This document shows, piece by piece, positions 34,665-56,873 of a DNA stretch of 64,000 nt. The position numbers and the translations under genes are program-made. The stretch comes from Desulfobacula sp. Its GTDB lineage: Bacteria; Desulfobacterota; Desulfobacteria; Desulfobacterales; Desulfobacteraceae. Below the pieces are notes generated by a model. That model saw only the letters and a program-made list of their open reading frames with translations. It made no database searches and was not told where the DNA came from. Location of the stretch: assembly GCF_030611305.1 (NCBI RefSeq), contig NZ_JAUWQB010000003.1:1-64000 (forward strand), read 5' to 3'. Numbering within the stretch: position 1 is the first letter of the stretch; each line of letters starts with the position of its first letter.

Positions 34665-34685
34665 TTTATCCTTTTGACACATATA

Positions 34686-34808
34686 TTAGCTGTATTTTAA
34701 CCATTTCTCAATATCCCCTGCTTCTGCCATAAGCCGTTCATAAAACAGGGAGTGATTTTGCAATTCCAATTGCCTTTTGTTCAGATACGTCACCCAGTGG
34801 GTGACCAA
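34686..34808 (-). CDS. small ORF directly after the last defence-operon helicase (40 aa, TTG start)
   Basis: Hand translation: (M)VTHWVTYLNKRQLELQNHSLFYERLMAEAGDIEKWLKYS*. GGAGAAGG RBS-like sequence follows the upstream gene's stop codon. Confidence 0.4.
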   Translation of the reverse strand: MVTHWVTYLNKRQLELQNHSLFYERLMAEAGDIEKWLKYS

Positions 34809-34826
34809 TTAGGGGCCTTCTCCTCA

Positions 34827-36962
34827 TTATACTGCCATTATAAATTTACTTGGTGATCCAAAACTTGTTACAATAACTTCCTTCTTTGCTCTGGTAGCTG
34901 CAACATAAAGCAATGCCCTTTCATGAACCTCAGCCTCTTGCTTAATCACTGGATCATATGTTTGGATATTTGAACTTTCAAAGGGGACAATTCCCTGATT
35001 CACCCCGGCAATGATAACTCTGTCAAATTCAAGGCCTTTGACTCTATGCATTGTGGCAAGCCTAAGCCCGGGAGCATTTTGATCTTCGGCTTCAGTCCGC
35101 TTTATTAAATATGTTTCAAAACCTTTATCTTCAATAACATTTTTGTATTGGTTTATAAGGTTGTTCGTTCTGGCAACCAGACAAATTTCCTTTATCTGAA
35201 TATCATCTTTGTTCATCTGTTGAAGGTATTGGGTTATATAATCAATTTCTTCTTGAAATGTGTCAAAAAATTTTACTTCGGGCGATGAACCATGAAGCAG
35301 TGATTTATACCCTTTTTGATCATCATCCCCCCCATCAAGATCATCGACCTTAATATTTTTTAAAAGGCCCACAGCCCACTTCTGTGTTTCATCGGTTGTA
35401 CGGTAATTTATTCTAAGTTTTCTTCCCCGCCCAATAATTTTGATGCCGCACTGCCCAAGCACAACCCTGTGTTTATAAATACGCTGGTGAGCATCACCGA
35501 CAATAAATATATCGTTTTTAGTCTCCTGCGGAATTATTTGTCGTATAAGTTTAAAAGCCTGCACCCCCATATCCTGGGCTTCATCCACAATTATTGAACG
35601 ATAGGAAAGGTTCTGCTCCTTTTCCCGGAGTAACAGCCTGGCATCTCTCATTGCATCATCCCCTTCCCGAAGGCCTTCTTCGTTGAGTAGAATTCGATAT
35701 TCCTCAAATACAGTCCAAACCAGTTTTCGTATCTTTCGACTCAACCGTGTTCCTCTGCCGACACGGGAGGCTTTTATGTATTCTTCAAAAGAAGTAATTG
35801 CCTGGGGCTGGATTACCCGCGTCCATTCTTCCCTGTAAAAAGACAAATCAAAATCAAGATCTGCAGGGACTAAATCCAATGCTTTATTCCAGAGAGATCT
35901 GGTTCGATTGCCGTAATCAATTGTGTAATCATATCCATTTTTATTTAAGAATCGGGATACCCACCTGTCCAAATTAACGACCTCAATTCTGCGCATCATA
36001 TCCTTTGTGCAAATTTTTGACAGGTTCTCCTGAATATCAGCAGCAAGGTTCCGGGTAAATGTTGTAAACAAAATTCGGTCTTTATCTTTTGTAAACTTAT
36101 TTCGGACAAGCCATTTTGCCCGGTGCATGGCAGCAACTGTTTTCCCGGTGCCGGCACCACCAAGGACCCGAACCGGACCATTCCAATTACGCTCAACGAG
36201 TTTCTGCTGGGAAGGGTGAAGAAAAATCCGCCATTTTTCCAAGGGTTCATTTAATATGGCTGCAAGTTCCAGGTCATCTTCAACAATATAAAACCTGCGG
36301 CGTGAATCCGGGTTTTCCAGGGCTGAACTAAAATCATCTGTATCTACAGCCTTTGTTTTCTCAGTAGATTCTATTTCCTGAAGCACTTCTTCCAAAGAAA
36401 ACCCTTCAGCAAGAAAAAAAAGAGATTCATATGCTTCCTGGGGTATTTGAGTTGATATCTGATCAAGCTCTCCAACGGTCTCCAAGCTTCTGATAAGTGG
36501 TATCTGCAATTTTGGAAGCCCGAGTTTTAAAAGATGTCTGTCCCGAATATTGTCAAACAATGCTTTTTTAGTATCATGGCTGATTGGCTTTTCTTTGGCT
36601 GCCTCTTCTATCTCGATAACCTGCAGACTCCCGGTCTCAGGGTGTATCCTATAAAATTTATTTTCAGCCCATTTGTATGCTTTATCATGATGGGCCACCC
36701 AGAGAAGTACATAAACATTCCCTTTTTCAGGTTTAAGCACAATTCCTCTGTAAGTATTATCAATACGAACAGATCTCATATTTTTATCTTTTGAATTCAT
36801 GATTTTTTCATAATTTATACCTGACAGACTTGGATTTGATCTGAATTTTGTTACAAAATCCATCACTTTGGCCTGTTGTTTTCTTGGTATTTTTGAAAAA
36901 GATAATAGAAAATCAGAAGCAATTGCCACTTTGATCTTATTTATAGGACCAGCCATACTCAT
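34827..36962 (-). CDS. RelE/ParE-like N-terminal domain fused to UvrD/SF1 helicase
   Basis: N-terminus KVAIASDFLLSFSKIPRKQQAKVMDFVTKF...MRSVRIDNTYRGIVLKPEKGNVYVLLWVAHHDKAYKWA is RelE-like. Helicase motifs RVLGGAGTGKTVAAMHRAKWL, SIIVDEAQDM, VGDAHQRIYKH, ATMHRVKGLEFDRVIIAG, LLYVAATRAKKEV. Confidence 0.88.
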   Translation of the reverse strand: MSMAGPINKIKVAIASDFLLSFSKIPRKQQAKVMDFVTKFRSNPSLSGINYEKIMNSKDKNMRSVRIDNTYRGIVLKPEKGNVYVLLWVAHHDKAYKWAENKFYRIHPETGSLQVIEIEEAAKEKPISHDTKKALFDNIRDRHLLKLGLPKLQIPLIRSLETVGELDQISTQIPQEAYESLFFLAEGFSLEEVLQEIESTEKTKAVDTDDFSSALENPDSRRRFYIVEDDLELAAILNEPLEKWRIFLHPSQQKLVERNWNGPVRVLGGAGTGKTVAAMHRAKWLVRNKFTKDKDRILFTTFTRNLAADIQENLSKICTKDMMRRIEVVNLDRWVSRFLNKNGYDYTIDYGNRTRSLWNKALDLVPADLDFDLSFYREEWTRVIQPQAITSFEEYIKASRVGRGTRLSRKIRKLVWTVFEEYRILLNEEGLREGDDAMRDARLLLREKEQNLSYRSIIVDEAQDMGVQAFKLIRQIIPQETKNDIFIVGDAHQRIYKHRVVLGQCGIKIIGRGRKLRINYRTTDETQKWAVGLLKNIKVDDLDGGDDDQKGYKSLLHGSSPEVKFFDTFQEEIDYITQYLQQMNKDDIQIKEICLVARTNNLINQYKNVIEDKGFETYLIKRTEAEDQNAPGLRLATMHRVKGLEFDRVIIAGVNQGIVPFESSNIQTYDPVIKQEAEVHERALLYVAATRAKKEVIVTSFGSPSKFIMAV

Positions 36963-36967
36963 TCCTC

Positions 36968-39900
36968 CTAATCACTAAGCAAATCGATATATTCTGCTTT
37001 ATTATTTAAAACGTCATCTATCATTGCTACTTTCCAGCCTGCTTTTTGAAATATCGATGTAAATTCAATCTGGCTGGATAATAAAAATGCCACTCTCTTT
37101 TCAATCCAGCCCAGTTCTGCTTCTGCGACAATTTGTCCTTTCCCATCAACAAGCTCAAATCCGGCTTCCGGGACCGAGCAGTTCATTTCAGCCAGTTGTT
37201 TTATAAGTTTATGCAAGGCAGGATCTACTAACTCAAAAACTTCGTCCCACTCACTCTTCGTCCCAGAAACATCTTCTGGTTCTGTATCTCTAAATCCTTT
37301 GTATGCAACACCATTGGCCATATCCTGCCCGGTTATGAAATACGAGTGTGGAATAAACTGAAAAAGATTATACAAGCGAAGAAATCCATTCCAGGCCACT
37401 TCAAATTCTTTGTTCTCCTGAAATTCATCAAGATCTTCCAGTCTGCAGGCAATATACATTTCAGATGCCTTATTTGTCTGAATCGCATCTTTCTGAACAG
37501 CAATACTGATTTGTAAAAAACTATTTTTTAACTTTGGCTGGAACAAACCATAAAACCATTGATCCTGCTTAACTTCAAAAGCATCTTTAATAATCTCGTT
37601 TACCTCTACAGGAAATCTTGTTTCTAAATTTTCAAACCATTTTGATTCACCCTCGGACGTTCCATATGTGACATTATCAAGATGAATCAGGCCGTGGATA
37701 AAAGCATGACAGCTCCACTTTTCAGCATCTGGATTAACTAAAAAACGAATCAGCCACTCAAAGCTGTCAATATTATTTGTTTTTCTTAAATTTTTTATTT
37801 CGTATAGTTCAGTCAGTTGATTATATTTTAAAATCTTTTCTTCTTTTTGAATATGGGTATAATTTTCAAAAAACGAGTTCTGATTTTTATATTGATTTTC
37901 AATATCTTTCCAGGACAATGACCATACATAGAAATTATTGCTTTGTGCAATTGCACACCTTTGATGCATGTCTTTTCCAATACGGTCTTTATGAAAAGCA
38001 AATCCATCGGTAAAAACAGCAATGGGTTGAAGCCCCTCCCTGGCACGGGCTGGCCTGAATACAAAATCCGCCCTTGATTTAACCAGAACACCGTCCGGCT
38101 GCCCTAAATCAACCTGCAATTCAATATACCAGGCTCTGTCACCAATTTTATAAAAATATCCTGGTTTTCCATTGACCACTTCTTTCTTAAGCGAAACCGG
38201 CAGGTTTTCTTTTTTTACCCTTCTTAAGGCCTCAATAAAACGGGCCTCAAGAACACTGTCAAAAAGTGAATTGATCTTGATATCTTTCAAGGTTTTTGTC
38301 TGGATTAAAAGATCCTTGTACTTCAAGATCTCAGACAGCATCTCAATTGCTGTATCCCGGGATGTCCCGGACATGGTGTAGTTTCTGCGATAAGCAAAAA
38401 GACATTTGTAACATCCGTCTTTTTCAGGATTCTGGTTACAGGAACAGGATTTTAGAACTTCAATGGCTTTTTCAAAAACTATCATCAATGGTTTTTTGCT
38501 CCGCATCAATTGTTTCAAATAACCCGTACCGCCGGGAACGGTATCGTAAATAACAATAAATTGTTTTCTATGACTTGAGCCTGCAACCGGCTCTTCATGC
38601 AGCGCCGTCTGGATGTGGTCAATATTGCCGCCAAACATCTGTTTCAGCCCGAGATGCAATGCAGCAATAAAACTATGGAGTTTTTTATCCGAGCTTTCAA
38701 GGGATATAATGGGCAATAACATCATGATAGCTTCAGATGCAAATTCTCTATACAAATAGACACAATCAGCAAGATTTTTTTCTGAATCTTTTTTGCGTGA
38801 CGGGCAGGTTAAGGAGTGTTTAATCTCACCTTTTCTATCTTGAATTTTCCCACAATATTTGCAGATTAAAAAACCCTTTCTGGGCAGCTCCAAACCTGCA
38901 ATACTTACTTTCTCACCGATTTCCTCCTTTTCTCCAAAATTAATTTCCCTGAAATTTGCTTTGGATAAAAATTCAAAACCAAATGGCAAGTCATCTGTTT
39001 TTACTTTGTACGCATCTGTTATATCTGTTTCTTTAAACCCCACAACCATCTGTTTATTGAAAAAACTTGTATTTCGTTCATCATTATCGTCACTGATACG
39101 ACTCTCTCTATCAGAGGTCGTGGCAAACATTTGCCGCATCCTCAGCATATTTCTTTTCTGGCCTGCATCTGACCACAATGGACTTCCACACTGGGGACAG
39201 GATGAATACTCAGAGATAGTACCTTCAATGGCCATAAACGAACACTTGTCGCACAACCGCCATATTTCAACTTCCGAAACGGACAAATCAACTTGGTCGA
39301 TCACCACTTTGCGGCCACCAGCATAAAAAGTGCTGGCTGGTGCAAGCTCACTGATGGCACTCACAGCCGGTCTTTCAAAATCATAGGTGAATATGTCGTA
39401 ATTGCTGCCTTGCTCCTGAGTCTTTGCCTTTCTTCTGTGAATGATGGAACGAAGCATGACACCGGCCTGGGGGAATGCATAATTCGGCAGCAGTCCTTCA
39501 TCTGTAAAAAAATTTAAGGTATGTTTATCATTAATCCGTGTGACAAGTGAATGAAGCCCTTTTTTTTCAATAACAAGCTCTCCAAGCTCTTTTTCATAAT
39601 TTTTGTCTTTTGCCTTTTCTCTCTTTTTCTTTCTGATTTTGGCATTTAGCGCATAGACTTTCTTTTTAAGAGACTCTCTTGCCTTGTAATGGTAAGCCAA
39701 CTGATCAATGATCCGGTATGCAAGGCTTCCCTCACTCTCATCATTACCCCGGACAAATTTTTTAAGAAACAAAATGGACTCCGAAGTTAAAGTTTTTGAA
39801 AACAATTGAATAAATTCATCAAGGATAATGGTCTGGTTAGTTTCAATGAAATTTAAAAAACTATGGGGAAATTTATTGATATCAACAGGTACAAGATTGC

Positions 39901-42900
39901 TCAAAACATGCCTGAGTTGTTGTGGAATCGCATTATCACTGATACCGTTTTCAACCCACTTGTCAAAGCAAAATGCTGTGAACTGCCGCTCAAGTACTGC
40001 CGAAGCATTTAAAAAAATGCCCGGAGGTTCGATTTGACCTGAAATCATGGCTTTGGGGTCTGCAAAAAAATAAAGATCATGGGGGCTTGCATTTGCCACA
40101 GTATAATTCAGTGAATTTCCATTTTCTCTTCCGGCCCTGCCGATTCTCTGGAGATAATTTGCCTGGGCTGGAGGTACAGAACAAAGTATGATCGAGGAAA
40201 GATCACCAATATCAATCCCCATCTCAAGGGTGGGGGTACATGATAGAAGATTGGGGTCCCAGGGGTTTCGATCTTTTCTCTTAAAATCTTTCTCAAGGGT
40301 TTCTCTTACATCTCTTTCAAGAAGACCTGTATGTTCTGCTGCAAATATCCGTTCTATATCTCCTGACGCATATAATTTCCCATAATAATCAGGCCCGGTA
40401 TCCATCAAGGTGTAGGTTCCCGGGCAATTTTGCCTGATGCAATAAGCATTCTCCCAGAAAGTTTGTTCCTGCAATGAGACAGACAGGTTGTGACTGCATT
40501 CCCTGCAGGTAAACTGGATAACATCTTTGCTTACATTAAAACTTTTTGGATAGATTCCCCATACCGGCTCATTATTGATTTTATGCTCATATAAAATTTT
40601 ATCCTCAACAAGGCTTTTCAGTGTGAATTCATAAATTGAACGTATCAGCTCTCCCACAAGGGGATAAAAAGGAGAAAAGCATTTATCCGCCCAGAATTCA
40701 TACCAGGTCATGCGGCTGTTTTTTTTACTGAAAATCTGATCAAACCGATATGATTTTTTTGCAGTCAGAAACGCAGGCGTCCTGGCATTAATACTGAAAT
40801 TCGGCATCCAGGGAATCCGGTTGATAATATAGGGCTCGCCCCATCGTTCTATAAAAGCATCCAGCTCTGTATAATAAAGTCCGCCTACATTTTTCAGGTG
40901 TGTTAGAAATCCTGAAAGAAACAGTTTCACACTCTTTGTGTTTAATTTTTCAAAACCGCCGATTTCATTTTTCAATATTTCTAAAAGCTTTTGGGACATT
41001 GCATCAAGCAGGACAGGATTGACATGGACAATGGATGAACTTGTTTTTTCAAGGGTACGCCCGATGCGGGTTCTAAAACCATATTCGCTGTATATTTCCC
41101 ATTCGATCCGCTTATGTACCTGATGTTTCAGGTCGGAACCTTTGGGAAGAATTCCATCCTTTTTTAATTTAGCATAGTCTGGAAGCCATGCCATGTTTGG
41201 CGCAAGAAACGTTGAAATAAACCTGTTCTCATCCATTTTATCCGACCAGTACCTGATAAATTTTTCAGACACCTGATCAAGAGATATCTCTTTTGTATCC
41301 TCAATAAAATGCTGCAAAGCACCTCTAAAATTGAAACGGAATGTCCTTCCCTCAAAAAAACCGGCTCGATGGGCTGCATCCTGTACAGAGTCTGAAAAAG
41401 TTAAAAGCTTTTTGTCATCATTAAAAGTGGAAGAATACAATTGAGCAATCAGCACACTGGTCAGGCTGGCCGCCCTTGATCCGAGAATGGTAAGGCTGTT
41501 ATATCCCCCGCAATAAGGGCAATTGTGCGTACCAAAGATTCGGTCGTTCCTTCGGATTTTCGTGTTTGGGATGAAAACAGGTATCATTTTGCTGCCGCCG
41601 CAATTGGGGCAGTCTTTTTTATCTGAGCCTGAAACCAAATGAAGACAATCCGTGCAAAGGCTGTTGAATAGTCCATCCATGAAGAACTGTGTCGAATTTT
41701 TCTTTTCCGGAAAAATAAAAGTCACTTTAGGATCATTCTTAAAAAAGGCAATATAAAATGATTGAAGATCCGGATTAATCTCATTATCCATTTCCCGTTT
41801 AAGACCGGCCCATCCCATGCTGTTGCAATCTCTGCAATGGATAAGGGGCAAATGCTTTTTCAGCTGCTCTTCATTCAGATCATCAGCAAAATTGATACAG
41901 GGTTTTGCCGAAACCTCACCCACCATGCGCCGAAGCTCCCTCATCCAGTGTTGATACCTGACATGAAGAAAGGGAAAAATCGTATCATTTATTTTGATTC
42001 GTGCAATGGAGACAAGGGTCAGAAGACTTGCGAAAAGATTTATTTTATGCGCCGGGGCAAGCGATTTTAAATCGGCAGTACATTTTTCCAGCTCAAACAA
42101 TATGTCCCCATAGCTTTTGCTTTCACCCTTGAGTACCTTGAGCAGGTTCTGGAAAAAACTGTGGCCCTTGAGCTTTTCACCCAGTTCAAACCGCCACTCC
42201 ATATCTTCAAAATCTTTTTCCAAAATGATTTCATCAAACCAGAGCTGATACTGCATCAGGGCATAAGCTTTGAAATTGTCGTAGACTCCAGGGTTTAATC
42301 TGTCCATCAAGTCAGGGGCGACAAGATCTACCCGTGTGATCATACTCTTTTCTAAAAATTCACCGGGTGAAATTCTGGATTCAGTGATCACGGCATTTTC
42401 ATCAAACGGTTCCCCAAACACTTCCCGGGCATATTCAACAAGACAATCCTTTTGTTCTTCACTGCCAAGAGTAGCTGATGTTCCGATACAGCATAAAAAA
42501 TCTTTTGGTGTATTCAGACGGGCTTTTAACCTTCGGACAAGACAGGCAAGATCAGAGCCTTGAGCCCCGTCAAATGTATGCAGTTCATCAACAACCAGGA
42601 ATTGAAGGGTTTCAGGTACTGCCTGTGACCACAATGGATAATCTTTTGCCCGTATGAGAAGATAGTCCAGCATTTTATAGTTTGTCAGCAGAATATCCGG
42701 TGGGTTTGCCCTTAATGTCTCTTTGTGGGTGATGATAAAATCCTGACCCATCACCATGTGGGGTTCTTTTTCACTCTGACCGACATACAGCCCTGCCGTG
42801 ACCATCCCTTTCAGATTTGGATTGTCGTATATGGCCGTGGCGAGCCGTCCGGCCTGGTCAGTGGCAAGTGCATTCATGGGATAAATAAAAATAGCCTTGA

Positions 42901-43270
42901 TTCCTGGTTCACCCCTGTGCTGATAGCAAAAATTGAGCACAGGATATAAAAAACTTTCTGTTTTACCGGAACCGGTTCCCGTAGCTACAATGGTGGATCT
43001 TGGTTTTTCCCCTGAAAGACGTTCAAAGATTTGCTCCTGATGAAGATGGGGTGCAAAACTCATGGGAACATCAATAAAATAATCCGGCCTGCCCGACCCT
43101 TTTTTAAACGGAAGCTGGACAGACAAATAAGGGCCTTTAAACACCTTGTCATCTTCAGATAACAAGTCATCAACAATCCCGTGGAAAAATGGCGTGGACA
43201 CAGGAAAGGTGGTCTTTAAAAAATCCTCTACGCCTTGTTTTAACTGTTGTGAGAGTATGGATGGTATCAT
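36968..43270 (-). CDS. giant DEAD/DEAH helicase with DUF1998/MZB-like zinc region and C-terminal putative nuclease domain
   Basis: About 2100 aa. TIVATGTGSGKTESFLYPVL, VVDELHTFDGAQGSDL, CTPTLEMGIDIGDLSSIIL, QRIGRAGRENGN, CNQNPEKDGCYKCLFAYRR. Start placed at 43270 (ATGA overlap with upstream gene). Confidence 0.92.
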   Translation of the reverse strand: MIPSILSQQLKQGVEDFLKTTFPVSTPFFHGIVDDLLSEDDKVFKGPYLSVQLPFKKGSGRPDYFIDVPMSFAPHLHQEQIFERLSGEKPRSTIVATGTGSGKTESFLYPVLNFCYQHRGEPGIKAIFIYPMNALATDQAGRLATAIYDNPNLKGMVTAGLYVGQSEKEPHMVMGQDFIITHKETLRANPPDILLTNYKMLDYLLIRAKDYPLWSQAVPETLQFLVVDELHTFDGAQGSDLACLVRRLKARLNTPKDFLCCIGTSATLGSEEQKDCLVEYAREVFGEPFDENAVITESRISPGEFLEKSMITRVDLVAPDLMDRLNPGVYDNFKAYALMQYQLWFDEIILEKDFEDMEWRFELGEKLKGHSFFQNLLKVLKGESKSYGDILFELEKCTADLKSLAPAHKINLFASLLTLVSIARIKINDTIFPFLHVRYQHWMRELRRMVGEVSAKPCINFADDLNEEQLKKHLPLIHCRDCNSMGWAGLKREMDNEINPDLQSFYIAFFKNDPKVTFIFPEKKNSTQFFMDGLFNSLCTDCLHLVSGSDKKDCPNCGGSKMIPVFIPNTKIRRNDRIFGTHNCPYCGGYNSLTILGSRAASLTSVLIAQLYSSTFNDDKKLLTFSDSVQDAAHRAGFFEGRTFRFNFRGALQHFIEDTKEISLDQVSEKFIRYWSDKMDENRFISTFLAPNMAWLPDYAKLKKDGILPKGSDLKHQVHKRIEWEIYSEYGFRTRIGRTLEKTSSSIVHVNPVLLDAMSQKLLEILKNEIGGFEKLNTKSVKLFLSGFLTHLKNVGGLYYTELDAFIERWGEPYIINRIPWMPNFSINARTPAFLTAKKSYRFDQIFSKKNSRMTWYEFWADKCFSPFYPLVGELIRSIYEFTLKSLVEDKILYEHKINNEPVWGIYPKSFNVSKDVIQFTCRECSHNLSVSLQEQTFWENAYCIRQNCPGTYTLMDTGPDYYGKLYASGDIERIFAAEHTGLLERDVRETLEKDFKRKDRNPWDPNLLSCTPTLEMGIDIGDLSSIILCSVPPAQANYLQRIGRAGRENGNSLNYTVANASPHDLYFFADPKAMISGQIEPPGIFLNASAVLERQFTAFCFDKWVENGISDNAIPQQLRHVLSNLVPVDINKFPHSFLNFIETNQTIILDEFIQLFSKTLTSESILFLKKFVRGNDESEGSLAYRIIDQLAYHYKARESLKKKVYALNAKIRKKKREKAKDKNYEKELGELVIEKKGLHSLVTRINDKHTLNFFTDEGLLPNYAFPQAGVMLRSIIHRRKAKTQEQGSNYDIFTYDFERPAVSAISELAPASTFYAGGRKVVIDQVDLSVSEVEIWRLCDKCSFMAIEGTISEYSSCPQCGSPLWSDAGQKRNMLRMRQMFATTSDRESRISDDNDERNTSFFNKQMVVGFKETDITDAYKVKTDDLPFGFEFLSKANFREINFGEKEEIGEKVSIAGLELPRKGFLICKYCGKIQDRKGEIKHSLTCPSRKKDSEKNLADCVYLYREFASEAIMMLLPIISLESSDKKLHSFIAALHLGLKQMFGGNIDHIQTALHEEPVAGSSHRKQFIVIYDTVPGGTGYLKQLMRSKKPLMIVFEKAIEVLKSCSCNQNPEKDGCYKCLFAYRRNYTMSGTSRDTAIEMLSEILKYKDLLIQTKTLKDIKINSLFDSVLEARFIEALRRVKKENLPVSLKKEVVNGKPGYFYKIGDRAWYIELQVDLGQPDGVLVKSRADFVFRPARAREGLQPIAVFTDGFAFHKDRIGKDMHQRCAIAQSNNFYVWSLSWKDIENQYKNQNSFFENYTHIQKEEKILKYNQLTELYEIKNLRKTNNIDSFEWLIRFLVNPDAEKWSCHAFIHGLIHLDNVTYGTSEGESKWFENLETRFPVEVNEIIKDAFEVKQDQWFYGLFQPKLKNSFLQISIAVQKDAIQTNKASEMYIACRLEDLDEFQENKEFEVAWNGFLRLYNLFQFIPHSYFITGQDMANGVAYKGFRDTEPEDVSGTKSEWDEVFELVDPALHKLIKQLAEMNCSVPEAGFELVDGKGQIVAEAELGWIEKRVAFLLSSQIEFTSIFQKAGWKVAMIDDVLNNKAEYIDLLSD

Positions 43271-44688: not shown

Positions 44689-44728
44689 ATGATTCCCCTG
44701 CTTTAGCCCCTATTTGCGGGATTCTTGA

Positions 44729-44758
44729 GATGTTCCCGAAATCTATTTCGGGAACATC
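44729..44758. promoter_or_regulatory. inverted repeat in the intergenic region within the defence operon
   Basis: GATGTTCCCGAAAT-CT-ATTTCGGGAACATC: perfect 14-bp arms with a 2-nt centre. No T tract follows on the minus strand. Confidence 0.6.
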
Positions 44759-44856
44759 CCGGCTTAAAATTGATTTTTTCAATCTTTTCAATCAGTTATC
44801 CTCAATAGCGGTGTAACCACCGTGACCGACTGAACTCACTGATTTCTTTATGCGAA

Positions 44857-46731: not shown

Positions 46732-48982
46732 GAACCTCCTGTGATGTTGTACCTGAGCCTAAATAGTCGTTATCCTTATATTCTAATTTTTCTTGCAACC
46801 ATTCTAATCCTTCGGCAATATATTTCGGAGGTTCAATTCCGCTTGGTTCTTGAAGATATAAAAGATCCAAAGCCATTTCTGCTTTTTTCCCAGTACCAAG
46901 GGCATCAAACATTGCGGTCATAGCTTCAGGTAAGGTCGGTTTTGATAGTGCCTCCGACATTTTTTTTATAAGTCCGGTTGGTTTGGTCAAATCCCTGAAC
47001 AGTTCAACATTAGAAAAAGTTAAAGCATCTTCAAAAGTATATGGGATAACCTCCTGGTTTTTATTGTCCCATGTAATTTTAAACGGATACTGATAGGCAA
47101 CTCGGACTAAAGCGTTCTCGGAGACTTTTTTATCCATAGGAAAATCCAACAATTCATCCAGATTTTCTTTTTGAGGTATCCAGTTCTTAAGAGTGTAATT
47201 ACCCGATCTATAACTTTTGTTTCGCTCAGGTTGAATTTTGTTGATACTGTCACTATTAATAGAATCAATATCTGTTATGACAAGAGTAATTAAACCTAAA
47301 TCTTCGATTAATGGTTTCAGCCTATGGGCATGACTTCCTCCTATTTCAAGAATCGTTATATATCGAGAATCTAGTTCAGGATATTTTTGAGATATAAAAT
47401 GGGGGAAAAGGATACGCTCAGCCGGTCCCTCCACTAAAATAACTGCATCTGCAAAAAACAAATCACAATGTGTTGTTTTTAAGTAGCGAGTCGCAAACTT
47501 GGATGTGTCATCTTCCTGTCCGAAGGTTTTCGATAAGTTAACAACTGTAGCATTAGGTACTTCATTTTTATTGTTAGCCGGATTCTTGCGAAAATATCTC
47601 AAACATCCAAAATCATTTTCGTGTGCTATATGGCTTGAATGCGTGCTGACAATCATTTGTGTTGAATGTTTTGCTGAATCTTTTAAATTCTTATGATTAC
47701 GCAATACATTGTAAGCTTTTTTTATAAATACCTGCTGCACTTGTGCGTGTAAATGGGCTTCTGGCTCTTCAATGAAAACAAGATGTAATGGTTCGATGAT
47801 ATTGTCAACTGTTTCAAGAGATTTGCCAGCTTTTCCTTTTCTCATCCATTCATCTCTAAAGCGAATTAATTTAAACACCATGGAAACAAGATTTTGATAA
47901 CCTAGCCCATTATATTTTTCAGGAAGAAAAAGAGGTGGCTCCTTAGTAGAATTTTTGCCCTTTGTTATACTAAATTGCACGGCACTATCATGACTAAGGC
48001 CATCAATTGGATTGATTTTACTGGTTAATGTAATTTGAGGATCACTAAATCCCGGATAGCCAAGACTTTCCAATTCAGATATTGCAGACCTAAAGCTTGT
48101 TTTAAGTTTTTTATCAAATTCATTTTTTGCATTTTCGATAGCAGTCAATGCATCTAAGTCACCTAAAGTTGGTTGTTCATAAGGGTTAAGGTGCTTGTCA
48201 AAATAGCCTCTAAGTTGACTGGACAAATTGCCGATACTATTTCCAGAATTGGTTATATCGGATGTTTTTGCATCAGAAAAACCTCTTTGAGCATTTATAA
48301 TATCTATTTTAAAAAGACCTTTAAACGGTTCTATATCAAGAGATACAAAATTATCTGGTAATTTTTGTAAATTAGCTACACCGTCAACAGGATCAGCAAG
48401 CTTTGACGGGTCAAGCAAATAAGGTTTAATTTTAAAGCGACTATATAAACGTTTCTCTAAAAATTCCTTCAGGGACTGAGGCCATAATGATAGTTTGGTT
48501 TCGCTACTATTTTTTAAAGCTGTTTCAGTGGCAGAATTAAAAGCTTCTTTAAATTCCTTATATAATTTTTCAATATCTCTTGGTTCAAAACTTAGACGAA
48601 CCCCAAGTGTCCCTCCATTCCAAGAAAGAGTAGGAATAAGATGGCTTACATAGTGAATTTGGCTCATATCAACATCAATCCAGATGTCAATAGAAGGGAG
48701 GAATGATAGCCATTGGCCGATATCCAAATTAAGCTCTGCCGAGTTGTTACACTTAACCCAAGTAGAGCCTATTTCATTTATACCATACCAGTTAGAAAGA
48801 GTTATGTCGGTCGTCGTTATTTCTTTATGTCGGTTTTGTTTAAGGAATAGTATCAATGCATCCATTGCAGATGTTTTGCCACTATTATTAGCACCTACTA
48901 AAACTGTCTCTTTGTCACCAAATTCGATGCGACATGATTTCAACTTTCTGAAATTCTGTATTTCAACAAATTTAATTTTCAT
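46721..48982 (-). CDS. OLD-family ATPase with TOPRIM nuclease domain, GajA-like
   Basis: Walker A LVGANNSGKTSAMDAL, Walker B region LVFIEEPEAHLHAQVQQVFI, TOPRIM-like FADAVILVEGPAERILFPHF...ILEIGGSHAHRLKPLIEDLGLITLVITDIDS. Confidence 0.88.
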   Translation of the reverse strand: MKIKFVEIQNFRKLKSCRIEFGDKETVLVGANNSGKTSAMDALILFLKQNRHKEITTTDITLSNWYGINEIGSTWVKCNNSAELNLDIGQWLSFLPSIDIWIDVDMSQIHYVSHLIPTLSWNGGTLGVRLSFEPRDIEKLYKEFKEAFNSATETALKNSSETKLSLWPQSLKEFLEKRLYSRFKIKPYLLDPSKLADPVDGVANLQKLPDNFVSLDIEPFKGLFKIDIINAQRGFSDAKTSDITNSGNSIGNLSSQLRGYFDKHLNPYEQPTLGDLDALTAIENAKNEFDKKLKTSFRSAISELESLGYPGFSDPQITLTSKINPIDGLSHDSAVQFSITKGKNSTKEPPLFLPEKYNGLGYQNLVSMVFKLIRFRDEWMRKGKAGKSLETVDNIIEPLHLVFIEEPEAHLHAQVQQVFIKKAYNVLRNHKNLKDSAKHSTQMIVSTHSSHIAHENDFGCLRYFRKNPANNKNEVPNATVVNLSKTFGQEDDTSKFATRYLKTTHCDLFFADAVILVEGPAERILFPHFISQKYPELDSRYITILEIGGSHAHRLKPLIEDLGLITLVITDIDSINSDSINKIQPERNKSYRSGNYTLKNWIPQKENLDELLDFPMDKKVSENALVRVAYQYPFKITWDNKNQEVIPYTFEDALTFSNVELFRDLTKPTGLIKKMSEALSKPTLPEAMTAMFDALGTGKKAEMALDLLYLQEPSGIEPPKYIAEGLEWLQEKLEYKDNDYLGSGTTSQEVLDE

Positions 48983-49029
48983 ATTTTAATGTCCATTGTT
49001 AATTCCTTTTCTTTAACTTGGCCCATTTC

Positions 49030-52000
49030 TTAACTAATTTTTAAACGTCTTGCAAATTCGTTCCAGACTTCCTCATAATCCTTTTCCCGATCACACCGGT
49101 CGAAGGGGGCTTCATATGCAATGGTTCTCTCTTTTGGTCCTACGGGTAAAGTGTCATCCATAATCGTTCGTTCCACTGTGCCGGGTTCCATATCTTTGAT
49201 TTCATCCCATTCCGAACGGGAAAATCCAACACCAGGCAGCCCCTTGCTGGAAGTGAAAACGATTCTGCCGTTTTGGTCGTACCATGTGTCAGATTCATAT
49301 TGCCGCATAACTGGAAATTGAACCCGATATATGGTTTTTAGTTCCTTCAGGGTCAGGCCCAAAGCCATGGAAGTAAGAACATCAATCTCTACTAACGCCT
49401 GTCTGCGTGCATAATCTGTGCGCAGGGCAATATTTCTTTGCCATTCAGGAGTGAGACTTTTAAAGTGATCGTTTGAAAGGCGGGGGTCGGCTTTTGCCCA
49501 GTAATCGACAATAAAAGAATCTTTCCAGCAATTGTCCCATAGGCCTTTAAAATGTTTTGTAATACATTGAAGTAAAAGAGATCTAAGATGAAGCTCTAAC
49601 CGAAATTTTTCATTGCACAATATCGGTAATTGATTGATAAGCGTAATATTGGCATGCCCCATCCCCGTAGTTTTAACCCTAAAATCAACAGGTAAAGAAA
49701 GAGAAAAACAATATAAATCCAACATCGTTTTTAAATTTTTAAAACACAACGCTATTATGGTATTAATATGGGCAACATCTTTAGGAATTATGGCAGAAAT
49801 GAGCGTTCTTTCCCCTGACTGGCTTAACATTTCTCTGTTAATATACCTATAAAACGTTGACACTGGTTTTTTATCTTCCCACAAGACGCGGGGTGTTTTC
49901 TTAATGTAATGATCATTATCACAATTCGGGATATAATTTGAACGAGGCAAATAATTATCAGGGAGAATCGTTAAATCAAGTACATCATAATCTGAATTTT
50001 TTGTGCATTTTTCACGCGGTGATTTATTGAATGGGTTCCCTAAAAAAAAATGAGGGCCTGATAGTATCCACTGAGAGTCTTTCTTAGGGAAAGTCGTTTC
50101 ACGACGGATTGTTCCGTCACTTTGCGATGTAGTTTCATTCCAATGCTGGGTAGGATGAATGTCATTATCTAAATCTTTAAGCTTTTTTGGATTTTCCGCA
50201 AATTTTTGCAACACGCTTATCAGTTGATGGGAATGTAATGCCGGGAGTCGAGCTTGGAGAGAAGGGGTACCATCTTTATCATACATCTTAGAAAACAATC
50301 TTAATTCTACTTCCGTCGTTTGTATTATTCGGTCATGATGGCCTTTAATATTCCATTTGTTTGCATCGTCTTTAATTCCAGGGATCAGTCCTTGCCAGTT
50401 ATGATCAAAACAAGAGTACACTGTTTTGGGTGCAAATAAATTTGCAATATGGAGAAAATTGGGTTTTATCGGATTGTTTTTATAAATATTGATACTGAAT
50501 TTCGCATGATGGTCAACTTCAGGAAAAAGCTTCAGTTCATTTTGAAATTGAAAATGGGTTCTTAATCTTGGATAGACTTCTTCTCGAAAAATGCCACCAT
50601 TTGGGTCATCATATATTCCTTCTGGATGCAAAAAACCAGATATCCCATTTTTATTCTCTATCATCCAGGCTTGGGGAAGGAAACATTTATAAAGATTGGC
50701 TTTCATACCTAACAATTGGGGGTAATTCTGATAACCGTTCAGGAAATTCTGGGTGCCGTCGGCTGCTTCAAATTCGTTTAAATACGAACTTTTTAAATCA
50801 AACTGATCAATGGTTTCAGCTCTCAGATCATTGAGTTTTGAGGCAGAGTATTTCCTTAAAACAAACTGGGGCTCTGCATCGCCCAGCACACCGGCTTCCT
50901 TCCATTCCACTTTTATCCAGGGCGGATTACCCAACACAAGATCAAACCCGCCTTTTTCTTCAAAGATATCTGCAAACTCAAGTTCCCAGTGCAGGAACCT
51001 GTATTTAACACCAAGACTTTTTATCAGCCCCAGCCGTTCATTTTCCCGGCAGAGCCTGTCCACATCCACAAACCCGAATTCATCCATAAAGTTTAAATTC
51101 TGCTGTTTAGGCTGGGTTTCAGGGAAAAGTGACATTTCCTCTTCAACCCTGAACCCGGAATCATATACATTGCCTTCCAGGATTAAAGACAGTTCCAGCA
51201 GCATTTCATACCGGGTTGGCAGCAGATCTGCCTTTTCAATGGGCCAGAACCATAGTGCGCACCAGTAATTCATTACCAGGCGCAGTCTTCGATAGAAACT
51301 TGAATTCCGGATATTTTCCGACATCAATTCCTGGTTGTAGACTTTGTCCTTCCATTTATTGTCAGTAAATTTTTTGTCTTGTGGCTTTTGGCCAAACACA
51401 TGGATGGAATCTGTTGTTCTTTTGCGCATTATTTTCAGCTCATCAGCATGGCGTTTCCAGAGTTTATCAATGGATTCTGACAATCTTTCTAATTGACCAA
51501 TCTCACCTCTTGTAAAAGGCTTTATAAACTCTTTTTTCCACTCCTTGATGGTTTCTATTTCATCGAATGCCAATTTTTTGATGACCTTGTCTTTATAGCT
51601 GGCCATGCCCCTGTCCGGGAGAAGAAAATGGTATATATGGCTTTCAGGTCTTTTTTTGCCGGGATGAACCCTTGTCGGAACTTCATCTAACCACAGCGGG
51701 GCGGTTCTCCGACTTTTTTTAAGCAGCAATGAAGCAAATACCTGTTTTCGTGCGCCGATAAGGGAATTTCCGCAGACCAGCTGCATTCCAAACCAGGGAA
51801 CATAGGCACCCTCATGGATGGTGTTCAGCCACAAAGAAACTTCGGCAAGCTCCACAGCTGTTGGATTGAGGTCAATCCCGAATACATTATTGTCTGCAAG
51901 GAACATTTTGACCTTCTGTTTTTCCAGAATATAGTCTTCATGGGGAATCATCTGGTTCAGCTCTTTTTGTTTCATCTGAAGATATTCTTCTGCAAGCTGA

Positions 52001-53724
52001 TTAATAGCCTCATTAAGGAAGGCTGCACTTCCCATGGCAGGCTCACAGATAGTGAGCTTTAAAATATCATCTGCTTTTTTATGTTTTAAAAGCTCTTTAA
52101 GGGCATATTTGACCAGGCATTGAGTAAGCACTTCCGGGGTATAGTAGGAGGCTGATTTTTCACGATCCCGGCCAGCAAGACGGTAAATAAAGGTGCCTTT
52201 TGGATATCTTGCCAGGGTGCCGTCCTTGTTGAATACTTTTTCATCCTCTGTATATTTTTTTAAATCATCTTCCCGGACAAAATATGCGGTTTCAAGCTCA
52301 TTATGGGAATCTTTTGCTTTTTTGACCTCGTAAAGCGTATGTTCCGCAAAAAATCCCCGATAGGACAAAAGCGCCTCATAGACCGCGCCCAGCTGGTTGA
52401 TCCCAAGCTGTGCATAAGAAATTCTTCCTCTTCTCTCTTTTCTGGATTTGGGCCGGGAAAGGGACATTTTTTTGATGATTTCCTGGAGGACAGAATTTTT
52501 AAACTTGACGCTGTTCAGGATCTTTGTTCTGTCAGGATCAAACAAATGGGACTGTAGAGGCGACATATTAAAAATATTGAAAGGAGATTGGATACCAAGG
52601 GTAAGCTCAAGGTCGTTGTTCGGGGTCCCATTGTAAATCAGATTAAAAAGTATCTGTAGCGATTCATGGATAAAATATCCGTTAAGGGATTCTTGTGTGG
52701 TCAGCTGAACCATTTCAATATCCCGGAGTGTTTCAAGGCTGTAGCCTTTTCGGTAGGCTGGCGATTTTAGTTGGGCATATCCAAGCTCTGGCCTTGCTTC
52801 AATATAGAAAATAAATAAAAGCCGGTACATGTATCTTAGACATTCGTTCGTGAGATCCTCGGCAAGGTTTCTGTCATACACCCTTGTCTTTTTTTCTTTT
52901 AAATAGGATATGGCTTCATTGCCCAGAAGTTCAATAGCCTTCCGCAGGGCATACTTAAGATCTTCGGAAACAGAAAAAGCATGTTTGTGGGAATTTTCAT
53001 CCAAATTGTCCAAGAGGCTTAATCCTTGTTTGGGGCAAATGCTTTTCCGGTGTAATAATGCACAAAAAACCTGGAGTGTGGACAGCTCCTTTCGGCTGAA
53101 AATCTCGTACAGGTCAAAGCGCATGATCCGCTTCTGGTTCCATTTTGTGCGGTCAATGAGCAGGATCTGGGACATGCTGATCAGGATAACCCAGCGGGGC
53201 GGTTCCGACATTGAAAAAATCTGGCGGCTGATGAGTGTCGAAAGAGACTCATCCGTTACATTCGCCTTAAAATCAGAATCTTTTGAAAACTGACAGGGTA
53301 ACAGTTTATATTCAAGGGGATTCATATCATCATTTGAGATATCAAGGCCTTCAATTATCCATAGCTCGGGTGCACCACTCTGCTTGTTGACGGCACGGAT
53401 GACAGGCATGACTGCACCATCTTCCAGTTCTTTTATTTCAGGGTTGAATTCAAACCCAAATATGGGAAGGAGTTTTTGAATAAATTGGTGTTGAACCAAA
53501 AGGTTTTCTTCGGGGGTGCGGGCCTTTTTTTTTAAAGTGTAAAGATTGAAATACTCTTTTGAAAGCCCTTTAAGTTTTGCATATGGGGGTTTGATATCTT
53601 TATCTTTTTCAGCATCTTTCCATCCCTTTAATACATTTTTCAAATCACTTTCAAGAATGGCGGAAAGGTAGTGATGACTGTAAAATTCATTCTCATTGAT
53701 GATGCCGGTAAAATCTATTGACAT
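49030..53724 (-). CDS. giant N6-adenine DNA methyltransferase, DISARM DrmMI-like / Eco57I-like
   Basis: Motif I ICEPAMGSAAFLNEAINQLAEEYLQ, motif IV DLVLGNPPWIKVEW; 1564 aa; overlaps the SNF2 gene by 10 bp. Confidence 0.87.
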   Translation of the reverse strand: MSIDFTGIINENEFYSHHYLSAILESDLKNVLKGWKDAEKDKDIKPPYAKLKGLSKEYFNLYTLKKKARTPEENLLVQHQFIQKLLPIFGFEFNPEIKELEDGAVMPVIRAVNKQSGAPELWIIEGLDISNDDMNPLEYKLLPCQFSKDSDFKANVTDESLSTLISRQIFSMSEPPRWVILISMSQILLIDRTKWNQKRIMRFDLYEIFSRKELSTLQVFCALLHRKSICPKQGLSLLDNLDENSHKHAFSVSEDLKYALRKAIELLGNEAISYLKEKKTRVYDRNLAEDLTNECLRYMYRLLFIFYIEARPELGYAQLKSPAYRKGYSLETLRDIEMVQLTTQESLNGYFIHESLQILFNLIYNGTPNNDLELTLGIQSPFNIFNMSPLQSHLFDPDRTKILNSVKFKNSVLQEIIKKMSLSRPKSRKERRGRISYAQLGINQLGAVYEALLSYRGFFAEHTLYEVKKAKDSHNELETAYFVREDDLKKYTEDEKVFNKDGTLARYPKGTFIYRLAGRDREKSASYYTPEVLTQCLVKYALKELLKHKKADDILKLTICEPAMGSAAFLNEAINQLAEEYLQMKQKELNQMIPHEDYILEKQKVKMFLADNNVFGIDLNPTAVELAEVSLWLNTIHEGAYVPWFGMQLVCGNSLIGARKQVFASLLLKKSRRTAPLWLDEVPTRVHPGKKRPESHIYHFLLPDRGMASYKDKVIKKLAFDEIETIKEWKKEFIKPFTRGEIGQLERLSESIDKLWKRHADELKIMRKRTTDSIHVFGQKPQDKKFTDNKWKDKVYNQELMSENIRNSSFYRRLRLVMNYWCALWFWPIEKADLLPTRYEMLLELSLILEGNVYDSGFRVEEEMSLFPETQPKQQNLNFMDEFGFVDVDRLCRENERLGLIKSLGVKYRFLHWELEFADIFEEKGGFDLVLGNPPWIKVEWKEAGVLGDAEPQFVLRKYSASKLNDLRAETIDQFDLKSSYLNEFEAADGTQNFLNGYQNYPQLLGMKANLYKCFLPQAWMIENKNGISGFLHPEGIYDDPNGGIFREEVYPRLRTHFQFQNELKLFPEVDHHAKFSINIYKNNPIKPNFLHIANLFAPKTVYSCFDHNWQGLIPGIKDDANKWNIKGHHDRIIQTTEVELRLFSKMYDKDGTPSLQARLPALHSHQLISVLQKFAENPKKLKDLDNDIHPTQHWNETTSQSDGTIRRETTFPKKDSQWILSGPHFFLGNPFNKSPREKCTKNSDYDVLDLTILPDNYLPRSNYIPNCDNDHYIKKTPRVLWEDKKPVSTFYRYINREMLSQSGERTLISAIIPKDVAHINTIIALCFKNLKTMLDLYCFSLSLPVDFRVKTTGMGHANITLINQLPILCNEKFRLELHLRSLLLQCITKHFKGLWDNCWKDSFIVDYWAKADPRLSNDHFKSLTPEWQRNIALRTDYARRQALVEIDVLTSMALGLTLKELKTIYRVQFPVMRQYESDTWYDQNGRIVFTSSKGLPGVGFSRSEWDEIKDMEPGTVERTIMDDTLPVGPKERTIAYEAPFDRCDREKDYEEVWNEFARRLKIS

Positions 53725-56570
53725 GAGTGACTTCCTTTAAGTACCGCAACAACCTGGATATAGGGATTGTCCTCTGTGGTCATGGTCTGTTCAATCCATT
53801 CCATGTACTCATCAAAAATGGCTTTTATCTCTCTGCGTTTGATTTCTTTTGTGGAGTGTATTCTTTTTTCCGACATTCTGCTGGTTTCAAATTTAAACTC
53901 AAGCTGAACATGCTGTTTTTCCTTTAATCTTTCAAGGGCATCCAGGTGGTCCTGGAGTTTTTCATTGATCTGGTCTTCAAAAATGTTTCTTTGTTCACTC
54001 ATCCATTTTTTTGCCTGTTCAATGGCATTTGGCAGTATTTTTTGTAATGGCGCGATATCAAGAGTTTTCCGGGCATTGGATATATTATTTTTACCGAGAG
54101 ATACTCTTTTAACAAGGCTTTCAAAGGCTTCTATCTTTTTAAAGTTTCCCTCCAGAAAAGTTGTTCCAAACCATCTGTGAACAAGGGGATGACCTTTTTG
54201 ATTCGGGATAAGGCCGGAAATAATAAAAACTGTTTCATCGGGTTTGAGGGAATTTTCAAGTTCGATTACCGGGGCTTCATGCCTTCCAAATGCAGCCAGA
54301 AGCTTATCGTTAATCCATTCCACAACAGGATTCAGGCTCCACAGATAATGAATCCGAGGCCATGCTTTCTCATCTTTCCTGCTTCTTTTGATCTCTTTTT
54401 GAATGGTATCCTTGTCCTCTGACAAGATAAAAGAGCCGTTTTCCGGCCAGACTTCTCTTGGCAGGAACCGGAACCTGTGCTTTAAATCATTGGGAGCTGT
54501 CATATCAATGCGTTGTTCATCCGGATAAAAGGCTGCCTGGAAATTCTGTCGGCCCAGATGGGTAATGGATGCCTTCATATATGAATAATTATCAGGGAAC
54601 AAGGATGGCATTGATACGGTTTTTATTTTGGCATCCTCGCCTTTGGGCGGCTGAGCGTCTCCAAAAAGAATTGCCAGCGGGTCCAACGCTTTCTTGGCAA
54701 TAGACGCTTCAAAGCTCTTGGGATTCTGGCCTGTTTCCATGGCCTTTGCAGTGATGCTCTCTTCTTCATCAATATCATAAACACCATAGAACTCAGCCGG
54801 ATCTCCAATATTTTTAACTGCTTCATTATCTTTTTGAATTAAAAGCTCAAGGATACGCATATCTCCCCGGATTTTTTCATTTTCACTTTTAGTAACAAGG
54901 TAAACAATTTGAGGGGTTCTTTCCTGGCCATATCTGTCAATACGGCCATTGCGCTGCTGGAAAACCATCAAAGACCAGGGGATATCAAAGTGAACCATTC
55001 GATGACACAGGTAATGCAGGTTGATGCCTTCCGAAGCCACATCCGATGCAATCAATAGTCTGACAGGAGACTCTTCTTTGCCAAAGTCTTCAACAATATG
55101 TTGCTGATCCATGTCTGACAGGGCGCCATGGAGAATATGTATCTGCTTATCTTTAAGGTTTAAGTCTCTTAAAAGGTTAACCTGTAGAAATTTAAGAGTT
55201 TCAATTCGCTCGGTGAATATAACAAGGCGGTCTGTCTTATCTTTACCTGCCCAGCCAAATCCTTTATGCTTGTCTTTAATCGTGTCTAATAGTTTTTGAT
55301 ATTTAGAAAAAGCCGCTGGTGAAATTTTGCTGACGGTTTCGTGCAATTCCTGCAGGGATTCAATATCCCTGTTGTATCCTGCATCTTTTTTACCAAGCCG
55401 TTCTATTCTATTGTAAATGGTATCAAGGCATGCGGCCGGGCTTGAAAAAAGAGATTTTTCAAGGGTTGTTTTAAAAAGCTGTCTTCCGGTTCTTTTCTGA
55501 TCTATGGAAGTAAATTTTAATTTTGTGAATATATTAAAAGCTATCTCTTCTTCTAAACCTGCCTCACAATTGGCAACGCTGATTTGTCTTTCCTTGAATG
55601 CCGATTCTACCTGGGCTTGAATATCTTTTTTAAAACGTCTGATATAAAGGCCCTTGATATCTTCCGGTCCATAATCCTCGGGATTGGCAATTGCCGTCGG
55701 GTCCAGCATGTTCATCAGGCTGGCAAAGCTTTTTGCCTTCCCGTCGTGGGGTGTTGCAGAGAGCATAATCAATGTATCTGATCTTCTGGATAAAAGTTTA
55801 GCCAGTTTTGCCCTTAAAGATGAATTATTGCCCCTTTCGGCTACATTATGGGCTTCATCAATAACGATCACATCCCAATAGGCATTTTCGATATAGGTTC
55901 TGTACTCAATATCCTGCTTTAATGTATCAATGGAAATAATGGATTTGTCATAATAATAAAAAGGATTGTGGTTGGTTGGAATCTGGGATCTGATACGTTG
56001 AATGCCGGAAGAATCAAGCCGGGTCAATGGGATGGTAAACCTTGCCCACATTTCTTTTTGAAATTGTGTCAGCATGCTTTTTACGGCAAGGACAAGGATG
56101 CGTTTTCCTTTGCCGCGCCTGATAAGTTCACTGAGCAGTATGCCTGCTTCCAGAGTTTTTCCAAGCCCAACTGCATCTGCAATCAATATTCTTTGTCGGG
56201 GTTGTTTTAATGCCTGAATCGCCGGGTCAAGCTGGTAAGGGACAGAATCCATGGCTCCCTTATGACCGACATACAAATTTTCATCTGTGGGTGGTGTCTT
56301 CCTCAAAAGGCTCTCGATATATAACAATGAGGCCTGATATGAGCTGGAGTTATCCTGAACTAATCTGGTTTCTGCCGGATCAAGGATTTCAATCTTTTTT
56401 TCTATTTCATCCAGAAAAATTGCTTCTTTGTCCTTAACCAGCTCTGATATGCCAATCACATCAAGCGCCTGACCGCCTGTTGATGTCTTATCAACTCTTC
56501 GTACGATCCACTCAGCATCCCGGATGACGATTCTTGCACCAGGAGCTATGATCGAATATGATAGGCTCAT
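53715..56570 (-). CDS. SNF2-family helicase, DISARM DrmD-like
   Basis: RILIADAVGLGKTLEAGILLSEL, VIVIDEAHNVAERG, LIASDVASEGINLHYLCHRMVHFDIPWSLMVFQQRNGRIDRYGQ; 951 aa. Confidence 0.9.
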   Translation of the reverse strand: MSLSYSIIAPGARIVIRDAEWIVRRVDKTSTGGQALDVIGISELVKDKEAIFLDEIEKKIEILDPAETRLVQDNSSSYQASLLYIESLLRKTPPTDENLYVGHKGAMDSVPYQLDPAIQALKQPRQRILIADAVGLGKTLEAGILLSELIRRGKGKRILVLAVKSMLTQFQKEMWARFTIPLTRLDSSGIQRIRSQIPTNHNPFYYYDKSIISIDTLKQDIEYRTYIENAYWDVIVIDEAHNVAERGNNSSLRAKLAKLLSRRSDTLIMLSATPHDGKAKSFASLMNMLDPTAIANPEDYGPEDIKGLYIRRFKKDIQAQVESAFKERQISVANCEAGLEEEIAFNIFTKLKFTSIDQKRTGRQLFKTTLEKSLFSSPAACLDTIYNRIERLGKKDAGYNRDIESLQELHETVSKISPAAFSKYQKLLDTIKDKHKGFGWAGKDKTDRLVIFTERIETLKFLQVNLLRDLNLKDKQIHILHGALSDMDQQHIVEDFGKEESPVRLLIASDVASEGINLHYLCHRMVHFDIPWSLMVFQQRNGRIDRYGQERTPQIVYLVTKSENEKIRGDMRILELLIQKDNEAVKNIGDPAEFYGVYDIDEEESITAKAMETGQNPKSFEASIAKKALDPLAILFGDAQPPKGEDAKIKTVSMPSLFPDNYSYMKASITHLGRQNFQAAFYPDEQRIDMTAPNDLKHRFRFLPREVWPENGSFILSEDKDTIQKEIKRSRKDEKAWPRIHYLWSLNPVVEWINDKLLAAFGRHEAPVIELENSLKPDETVFIISGLIPNQKGHPLVHRWFGTTFLEGNFKKIEAFESLVKRVSLGKNNISNARKTLDIAPLQKILPNAIEQAKKWMSEQRNIFEDQINEKLQDHLDALERLKEKQHVQLEFKFETSRMSEKRIHSTKEIKRREIKAIFDEYMEWIEQTMTTEDNPYIQVVAVLKGSHSCQ

Positions 56571-56802
56571 CTTATCCTTTTTCAGGTCTCCACTTAAATA
56601 TCATTATTTGCAGACACAAATTTAGCTTAACGATTCATTTTTTTGTAGTTATTTTTTTTAGTATGCGAACACTGACATGTCAAGCAATTGCACTTATAAC
56701 AGGTGTTTTTATATACTGCTGCCAGCTACGACCTCCCTTATTTAAAATAGGAAGATTATCTTGTTGATATCTGTTTTCAAGGTTCAGTAAGTATCCACTA
56801 TC

Positions 56803-56840
56803 ATTTGTCGGAAATGCCAATATTGGCATTTCCGACAAAT
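56803..56840. repeat. 38-bp perfect palindrome
   Basis: ATTTGTCGGAAATGCCAA-TA-TTGGCATTTCCGACAAAT, fully self-complementary, between nadB 3' end and the defence operon 5' end. Confidence 0.9.
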
Positions 56841-56873
56841 AGCGATAAGTAATGAAACCTGGAATTCAATTCT

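Follow-up and report, generated by a model that had tools for sequence, protein, structure and literature searches.

The DNA analysed here is a stretch of 64,000 nucleotides from Desulfobacula sp. (contig NZ_JAUWQB010000003.1, positions 1 to 64,000; hereafter the window), in which seven large co-directional ORFs lie on the minus strand between ubiE (plus strand) and nadB (minus strand). They had been noted in the original prediction, and their domains are confirmed here with Pfam and PADLOC. Both flanking genes are confirmed too, and the window holds no tRNA gene. According to the ORF list, the operon spans 34827-56570, so that of the limits first proposed (34686-56570) the upper one stands and the lower one does not. 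The overlaps of 10 bp (armA/armB) and 11 bp (gajA/gajB), the ATGA shared by the gene 5 stop and the armC start, and the 5 bp gap between armC and armD were exactly as predicted; the remaining gaps measure 47 bp (armB/gajA) and 168 bp (gajB/gene 5). The armC ORF extends over 36968-43294, but both its homologues and the ATGA overlap indicate that the ATG at 43270 is the start used. The short gaps and the ATGA overlap suggest that the cargo is coupled to armC. The gajB/gene 5 gap holds a perfect hairpin with a 13-bp stem and without a T run (44729-44758, GATGTTCCCGAAA-TAGA-TTTCGGGAACATC), and gene 5 may thus own a promoter. Ahead of armA, a promoter-like stretch (TTGACATGTCA...) was found at 56656-56683, in which TGACATGTCA is a palindrome and a possible operator. 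Sigma-70 and terminator scans returned matches at chance level only.

Table 1. Features of the locus, with predicted functions and the basis of each assignment
Feature	Position	Strand	Basis
armA, RapA/SNF2 (BrxHII-like) helicase, 951 aa	53715..56570	-	PADLOC DrmD/BrxHII-like, Pfam SNF2 + Helicase_C
armB, Eco57I/PglX-like N6-adenine methyltransferase, 1564 aa	49030..53724	-	PADLOC type IIG/DrmMI, Pfam, E. coli alignment
gajA (embedded cargo), OLD ABC-ATPase + TOPRIM nuclease, 753 aa	46721..48982	-	PADLOC, Pfam AAA_15 + OLD-like TOPRIM
gajB (embedded cargo), UvrD-family helicase, 624 aa	44857..46731	-	PADLOC GajB, likeness to solved GajB
gene 5 (embedded cargo), AlbA_2 (Schlafen) + HATPase_c_4 + winged-helix, 473 aa	43267..44688	-	Pfam
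armC, YprA-family helicase, DUF1998/MZB, C-terminal Vsr-like nuclease, 2100 aa	36968..43270	-	PADLOC DruE-type, Pfam DEAD + MZB
armD, RelE-fold domain fused to GajB-like UvrD helicase, 711 aa	34827..36962	-	PADLOC, Pfam, E. coli alignment, fold match
armB-armC cargo port, 5,759 bp in window	43271..49029	-	filled in 19/19 measured loci
island between ubiE and nadB, ~22.2 kb	34678..56861	.	join points in genus relative L149

Of 12 genomes of the genus that were searched, 8 had nadB next to ubiE on one contig, mostly 14-120 bp apart, and the island was therefore either gained here or lost in the relatives. Its empty site was observed: the locus of a genus relative (L149) joins exactly at the island ends, and the alignment with genome G025 passes from 34677 to 56862 with no base between. 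Neither a tRNA nor an integrase nor a clear target duplication was found at the island ends. A perfect palindrome of 38 bp (56803-56840; 19-nt arms, no loop) lies 21 bp inside the end on the nadB side.

On sequence grounds, genes 1, 2, 6 and 7 are the ArmA-ArmB-ArmC-ArmD set of ARMADA type II, an already described system. Its definition (PMC12458937, Bell et al. 2025, preprint) comprises a RapA/BrxHII-like helicase (ArmA), a PglX-like methylase (ArmB), a YprA-like helicase with a C-terminal Vsr-type nuclease (ArmC) and a GajB-like helicase fused to a RelE-like domain (ArmD), encoded in the order armA-armB-armC-armD, which is stated to be strict. The same work names ARMADA II as a relative of both DISARM and Druantia and reports that in E. 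coli all four proteins are needed for non-abortive protection against phages, that the four genes suffice, and that phage replication is blocked directly. The window has the same gene order and domains (RapA-like helicase, PglX-like methylase, YprA-like helicase, RelE-UvrD); in comparison with the published system, it adds 5.8 kb of cargo (gajA, gajB and the AlbA_2 gene) between the second and third of these genes. In a plasmid of Cylindrospermopsis (L110), the order of the ARMADA II genes was C-D-A-B, against the strict order stated.

Taking the E. coli plasmid copy of ARMADA II as the alignment reference, we found identities of 53% (ArmA), 52% (ArmB), 39% (ArmC) and 49% (ArmD). The residues mutated and found to be required in E. 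coli (ArmA K136/D236, ArmB G605/N971, ArmC K110/D234 and ArmD K266/D454; PMC12458937) had the expected letters at the published numbers, and all eight are conserved in the window, as K138 (Walker A) and D238 (Walker B) in ArmA, G565 (SAM motif) and N933 (NPPW) in ArmB, K103/D228 in ArmC and K274/D460 in ArmD. The Vsr-like D/D/H pattern of ArmC, a domain assignment that comes from PMC12458937, is present in the window and conserved in the expected region across four phyla-distant homologues. The N-terminus of ArmD had no sequence match in Pfam or, by phmmer, against the PDB; its low-confidence model (pLDDT 58) matched PDB structures that were nearly all RelE/YoeB-family toxins (best E 7e-4), and this region is thus predicted to fold like RelE/YoeB, in agreement with the RelE-UvrD fusion first proposed. 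In a tree confined to 34 ArmC homologues, the window ArmC grouped with loci carrying ArmD. A search of viral contigs with ArmC returned no match.

Genes 3 and 4, described at the outset as a Gabija-like OLD/UvrD pair, are identified as a complete Gabija pair by PADLOC matches over the full length of the models (E=4e-289 for GajA, E=4e-254 for GajB). Alignments related both proteins to solved Gabija proteins, and the E of the TOPRIM EGP motif and the DxD were retained with respect to solved GajA. As in known Gabija, the two genes are complete and overlap, although here the pair is nested in another defence operon and GajA measures 753 aa, as compared with 578 aa for the solved protein. Gene 5 encodes AlbA_2 (E=4e-22) and HATPase_c_4 domains and a C-terminal winged helix, and E8, E13 and D42 are visible in its sequence, which we take to be the acidic active-site pattern of a Schlafen-type RNase. 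That this gene encodes the transcriptional regulator of the operon, and not an RNase effector, is quite possible. The position of the winged helix and the occurrence of homologues as single genes in non-defence contexts would fit a regulator; the Schlafen-type signatures E-x4-E-F-K and G-x-D, kept in the AlbA_2 gene sequences, speak against it, as does the report of the same architecture as a Schlafen-family RNase layer of BREX loci in >1000 taxa (PMC12839542). Homologues of the AlbA_2 gene were found in 39 of 390 genomes of the class, and none of the eight whose contexts were read had Gabija nearby. Conversely, close relatives of GajA in four other genomes of the class formed gajA-gajB pairs without an AlbA_2 gene. 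Since the two are unlinked in these genomes, we rejected a fixed Gabija-AlbA_2 trio and regard the insert as two independent recruits.

Related loci were gathered by ArmC or ArmD query, never by cargo, with plasmids added; most come from metagenome assemblies. Nineteen of them had both ends of the armB-armC junction on the contig, all in Desulfobacterota genomes except L007, whose assignment to an archaeal bin is probably wrong. The junction was filled with foreign genes in every one (gap 591-5,759 bp). The other two junctions, counted as filled at gaps of 500 bp or more, were so in 2 of 16 measurable cases for armA-armB, one of them due to an insertion-sequence gene, and in 1 of 11 for armC-armD (Fisher p 5e-8 and 4e-7 for armB-armC versus armA-armB and armC-armD, respectively, shared ancestry being ignored). 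Four loci counted among the 19 (L043, L104, L105 and the partial L044) fall in a deeper sister branch with ~31% ArmC identity, and cargo was also present in four further loci with one end missing (L041, L044, L062 and L102). Of the refuting condition first proposed, that the genes rarely co-occur, one half holds, all seven being together only here, and the other does not: the four ARMADA genes are widely found together, and each Desulfobacterota-type locus measured had its armB-armC position filled.

Outside Desulfobacterota, cargo encoded a MoxR-like ATPase in a Nostoc plasmid and an IrrE-like protein in two Haematobacter plasmids, and was absent in E. coli, Klebsiella, Microvirga, Martelella, Gemmobacter, Aulosira and Pseudanabaena. 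Among E. coli genomes, 521 matched the junction and at least 517 held most of it, closed; no embedded cargo was seen, each full-length match listed being a single uninterrupted piece. The closed junction in at least 517 genomes shows that the cargo is dispensable for ARMADA in E. coli. Literature searches returned no description of such a port in ARMADA II, and none was found in the main text of PMC12458937, which mentions neither Gabija nor a cargo position. The placement, that is, a recurrent cargo port at armB-armC, appears to be new.

By Pfam and PADLOC, the slot genes belonged mostly to defence or toxin-antitoxin (TA) families. The armB-armC slots contained AAA_21+RloB (L039, L040), ABC-ATPase+DUF3226 TOPRIM-like genes (L101, L105), paired or single AAA_21 ATPases (L100, L102), an AAA_11/12-PLD helicase-nuclease (L038), an AlbA_2-HATPase gene (L007), an MBL-fold protein similar to LmuA (L005) and proteins similar to the phage-defence candidates PDC-S02, PDC-M28 and PDC-M38 (L042, L043, L105). 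There were also DUF4276 with IrrE-HTH and PIN (L041), IrrE-HTH with PIN and a SocA-like gene (L037), HigB with HTH (L006, L065), ParE with its antitoxin (L064), HicB with a SecB-like gene (L103), DUF4160+DUF2442 (L063) and Fic (L101, L104). The three cargo genes of L005 (7501-9886) encode proteins of 245 aa, 177 aa and 376 aa; the last is the MBL-fold protein, and the other two match no Pfam or PADLOC family. In L063 (2918-4170), armA is interrupted by a transposase gene, and an ORF of 134 aa lies between armC and armD; its ARMADA is probably inactivated, with the cargo retained. A mobile element as the carrier of the cargo was rejected, as transposase remnants were only occasional (L037, L104, L102) and none was found in the window.

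We also observed exchange of the cargo between close relatives. In the ArmC tree (34 rows), close neighbors carried different cargo (L005, L006 and L007; L063 and L064) or were empty and filled (L072, empty, and L073; L111, empty, and L112). In the DNA of most such pairs, homology ended ~30 bp or less from the armB stop and returned ~30 bp or less from the armC start. The empty junction of the Martelella plasmid reads ...GCCGCC TGA G ATGAACCCG, and the filled one of the Haematobacter plasmid ...GCCGC TGA ATGACGGGG ... ATGAACCCG. These belong to a set of alphaproteobacterial plasmids (L111, L112, L115 and L116) in which ARMADA II is preceded by a WYL-domain regulator and which differ by the IrrE-like cargo gene, forming a natural filled/empty pair. 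In the closest relative of the window (L004, in genome G001), ArmC is 96% identical, and armC is still preceded by the end of this AlbA_2 gene. There (1-1075 of L004; G001:C31), codons 267-455 of armA remain as a fragment that overlaps the AlbA_2 gene end by 4 bp, and armB, gajA and gajB were not found, which represents either a decayed operon or a misassembly near the contig end.

We believe that the locus is very probably a horizontally acquired ARMADA II operon whose armB-armC junction is a preferred port, occupied here by a Gabija pair and a Schlafen-type RNase or regulator gene, the cargo being made of separate modules. By analogy with published work in other hosts, on which the anti-phage activity of both ARMADA and Gabija rests, ARMADA would act as the first line of defence: ArmB would methylate DNA, possibly as a self-mark, ArmA and ArmC would translocate on phage DNA, ArmC cutting it via the Vsr-like domain, and ArmD (RelE-UvrD) would be an essential partner. 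The embedded genes would be co-transcribed as separate modules on the ARMADA transcript and may represent a second layer or guard beside it, GajA/GajB attacking DNA in response to phage activity or anti-restriction, with the Schlafen protein perhaps a last resort that cleaves tRNA or regulates expression. PARIS, Gabija and Zorya II are known to respond to the anti-restriction protein Ocr (PMC12255303). A stronger proposal, that the junction is a dedicated and functionally coupled port for exchangeable guard or back-up effectors (Gabija, ABC-ATPase+TOPRIM/RloB, Schlafen, TA), co-expressed and triggered when ARMADA is inhibited or overrun, is speculative and rather unlikely.

It is possible, if somewhat doubtful, that the insert is neutral or selfish (TA addiction or a chance juxtaposition in a defence island) and has no functional tie to ARMADA. 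Many slots do hold plain TA modules (HigBA, ParDE, HicAB), the cargo is exchanged fast, and embedding would keep a module on a selected transcript, but chance explains neither a single preferred junction, nor co-orientation, nor the recurrence of ABC/OLD-ATPase plus TOPRIM-type, PIN and Schlafen cargo, classes that are also found inside BREX loci (PMC12839542). A single integrated seven-protein system, with Gabija and the AlbA_2 protein as obligate subunits of a new multi-layer machine, would account for the co-directional, overlapping genes of one apparent operon; we consider it very improbable, since the four Arm genes are found elsewhere without cargo or next to other cargos, of which there are at least a dozen, Gabija and AlbA_2 genes are found without each other, and four genes suffice in E. 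coli (PMC12458937). The new seven-gene DISARM-related architecture of the original prediction is thus replaced by ARMADA with exchangeable cargo at one position, and of its DISARM-like part the relationship persists, the system itself being ARMADA type II. A variant of class 1 DISARM or Druantia is hardly credible: PADLOC, which lacks an ARMADA model and spreads the outer genes over DrmD, type IIG/DrmMI, DruE and GajB, gives the first three as best models, and the SNF2 helicase, PglX-like methylase and YprA-family helicase are indeed shared with class 1 DISARM, but the DUF1998/MZB part belongs to one long helicase with a nuclease domain and not to a separate drmB, none of the seven genes has the PLD domain of drmC, ArmD is additional, the DruE-like match has no druH or druABCD partner among its neighbors, and gene set and order equal those of ARMADA II.

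The four-gene system, Gabija, and embedding in BREX or type I restriction-modification (RM) loci are already known, and the nesting of defence genes in other defence operons has been termed 'guilt-by-embedding' (as cited in PMC12255303). BREX and BREX-related loci host OLD/TOPRIM modules, Gabija and PARIS among them, as well as PIN and Schlafen modules, which are proposed to be back-up effectors (PMC12839542). Cargo classes are shared with the window, including Schlafen with a histidine-kinase-like ATPase and wHTH, whereas what differs is the host, here ARMADA II, and the strong preference for one junction. In type I RM operons, PrrC of the ecoprrI locus acts as a guard that responds to anti-restriction (PMC12707154), and DarTG2 is located between hsdS and hsdR (PMC12255303); these are likewise toxin or abortive-infection genes within a restriction operon, possibly guards, although ARMADA itself falls outside type I RM.

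These results indicate that, at least within one phylum, other defence modules have repeatedly integrated at a single internal junction of ARMADA II, where they are exchanged faster than the surrounding genes diverge, and the port links ARMADA to embedding in BREX and type I RM. The guard idea would be testable with natural filled/empty pairs such as the Haematobacter and Martelella plasmids. Moreover, several slot genes are of no known family, and the port may offer an unbiased route to new defence genes.
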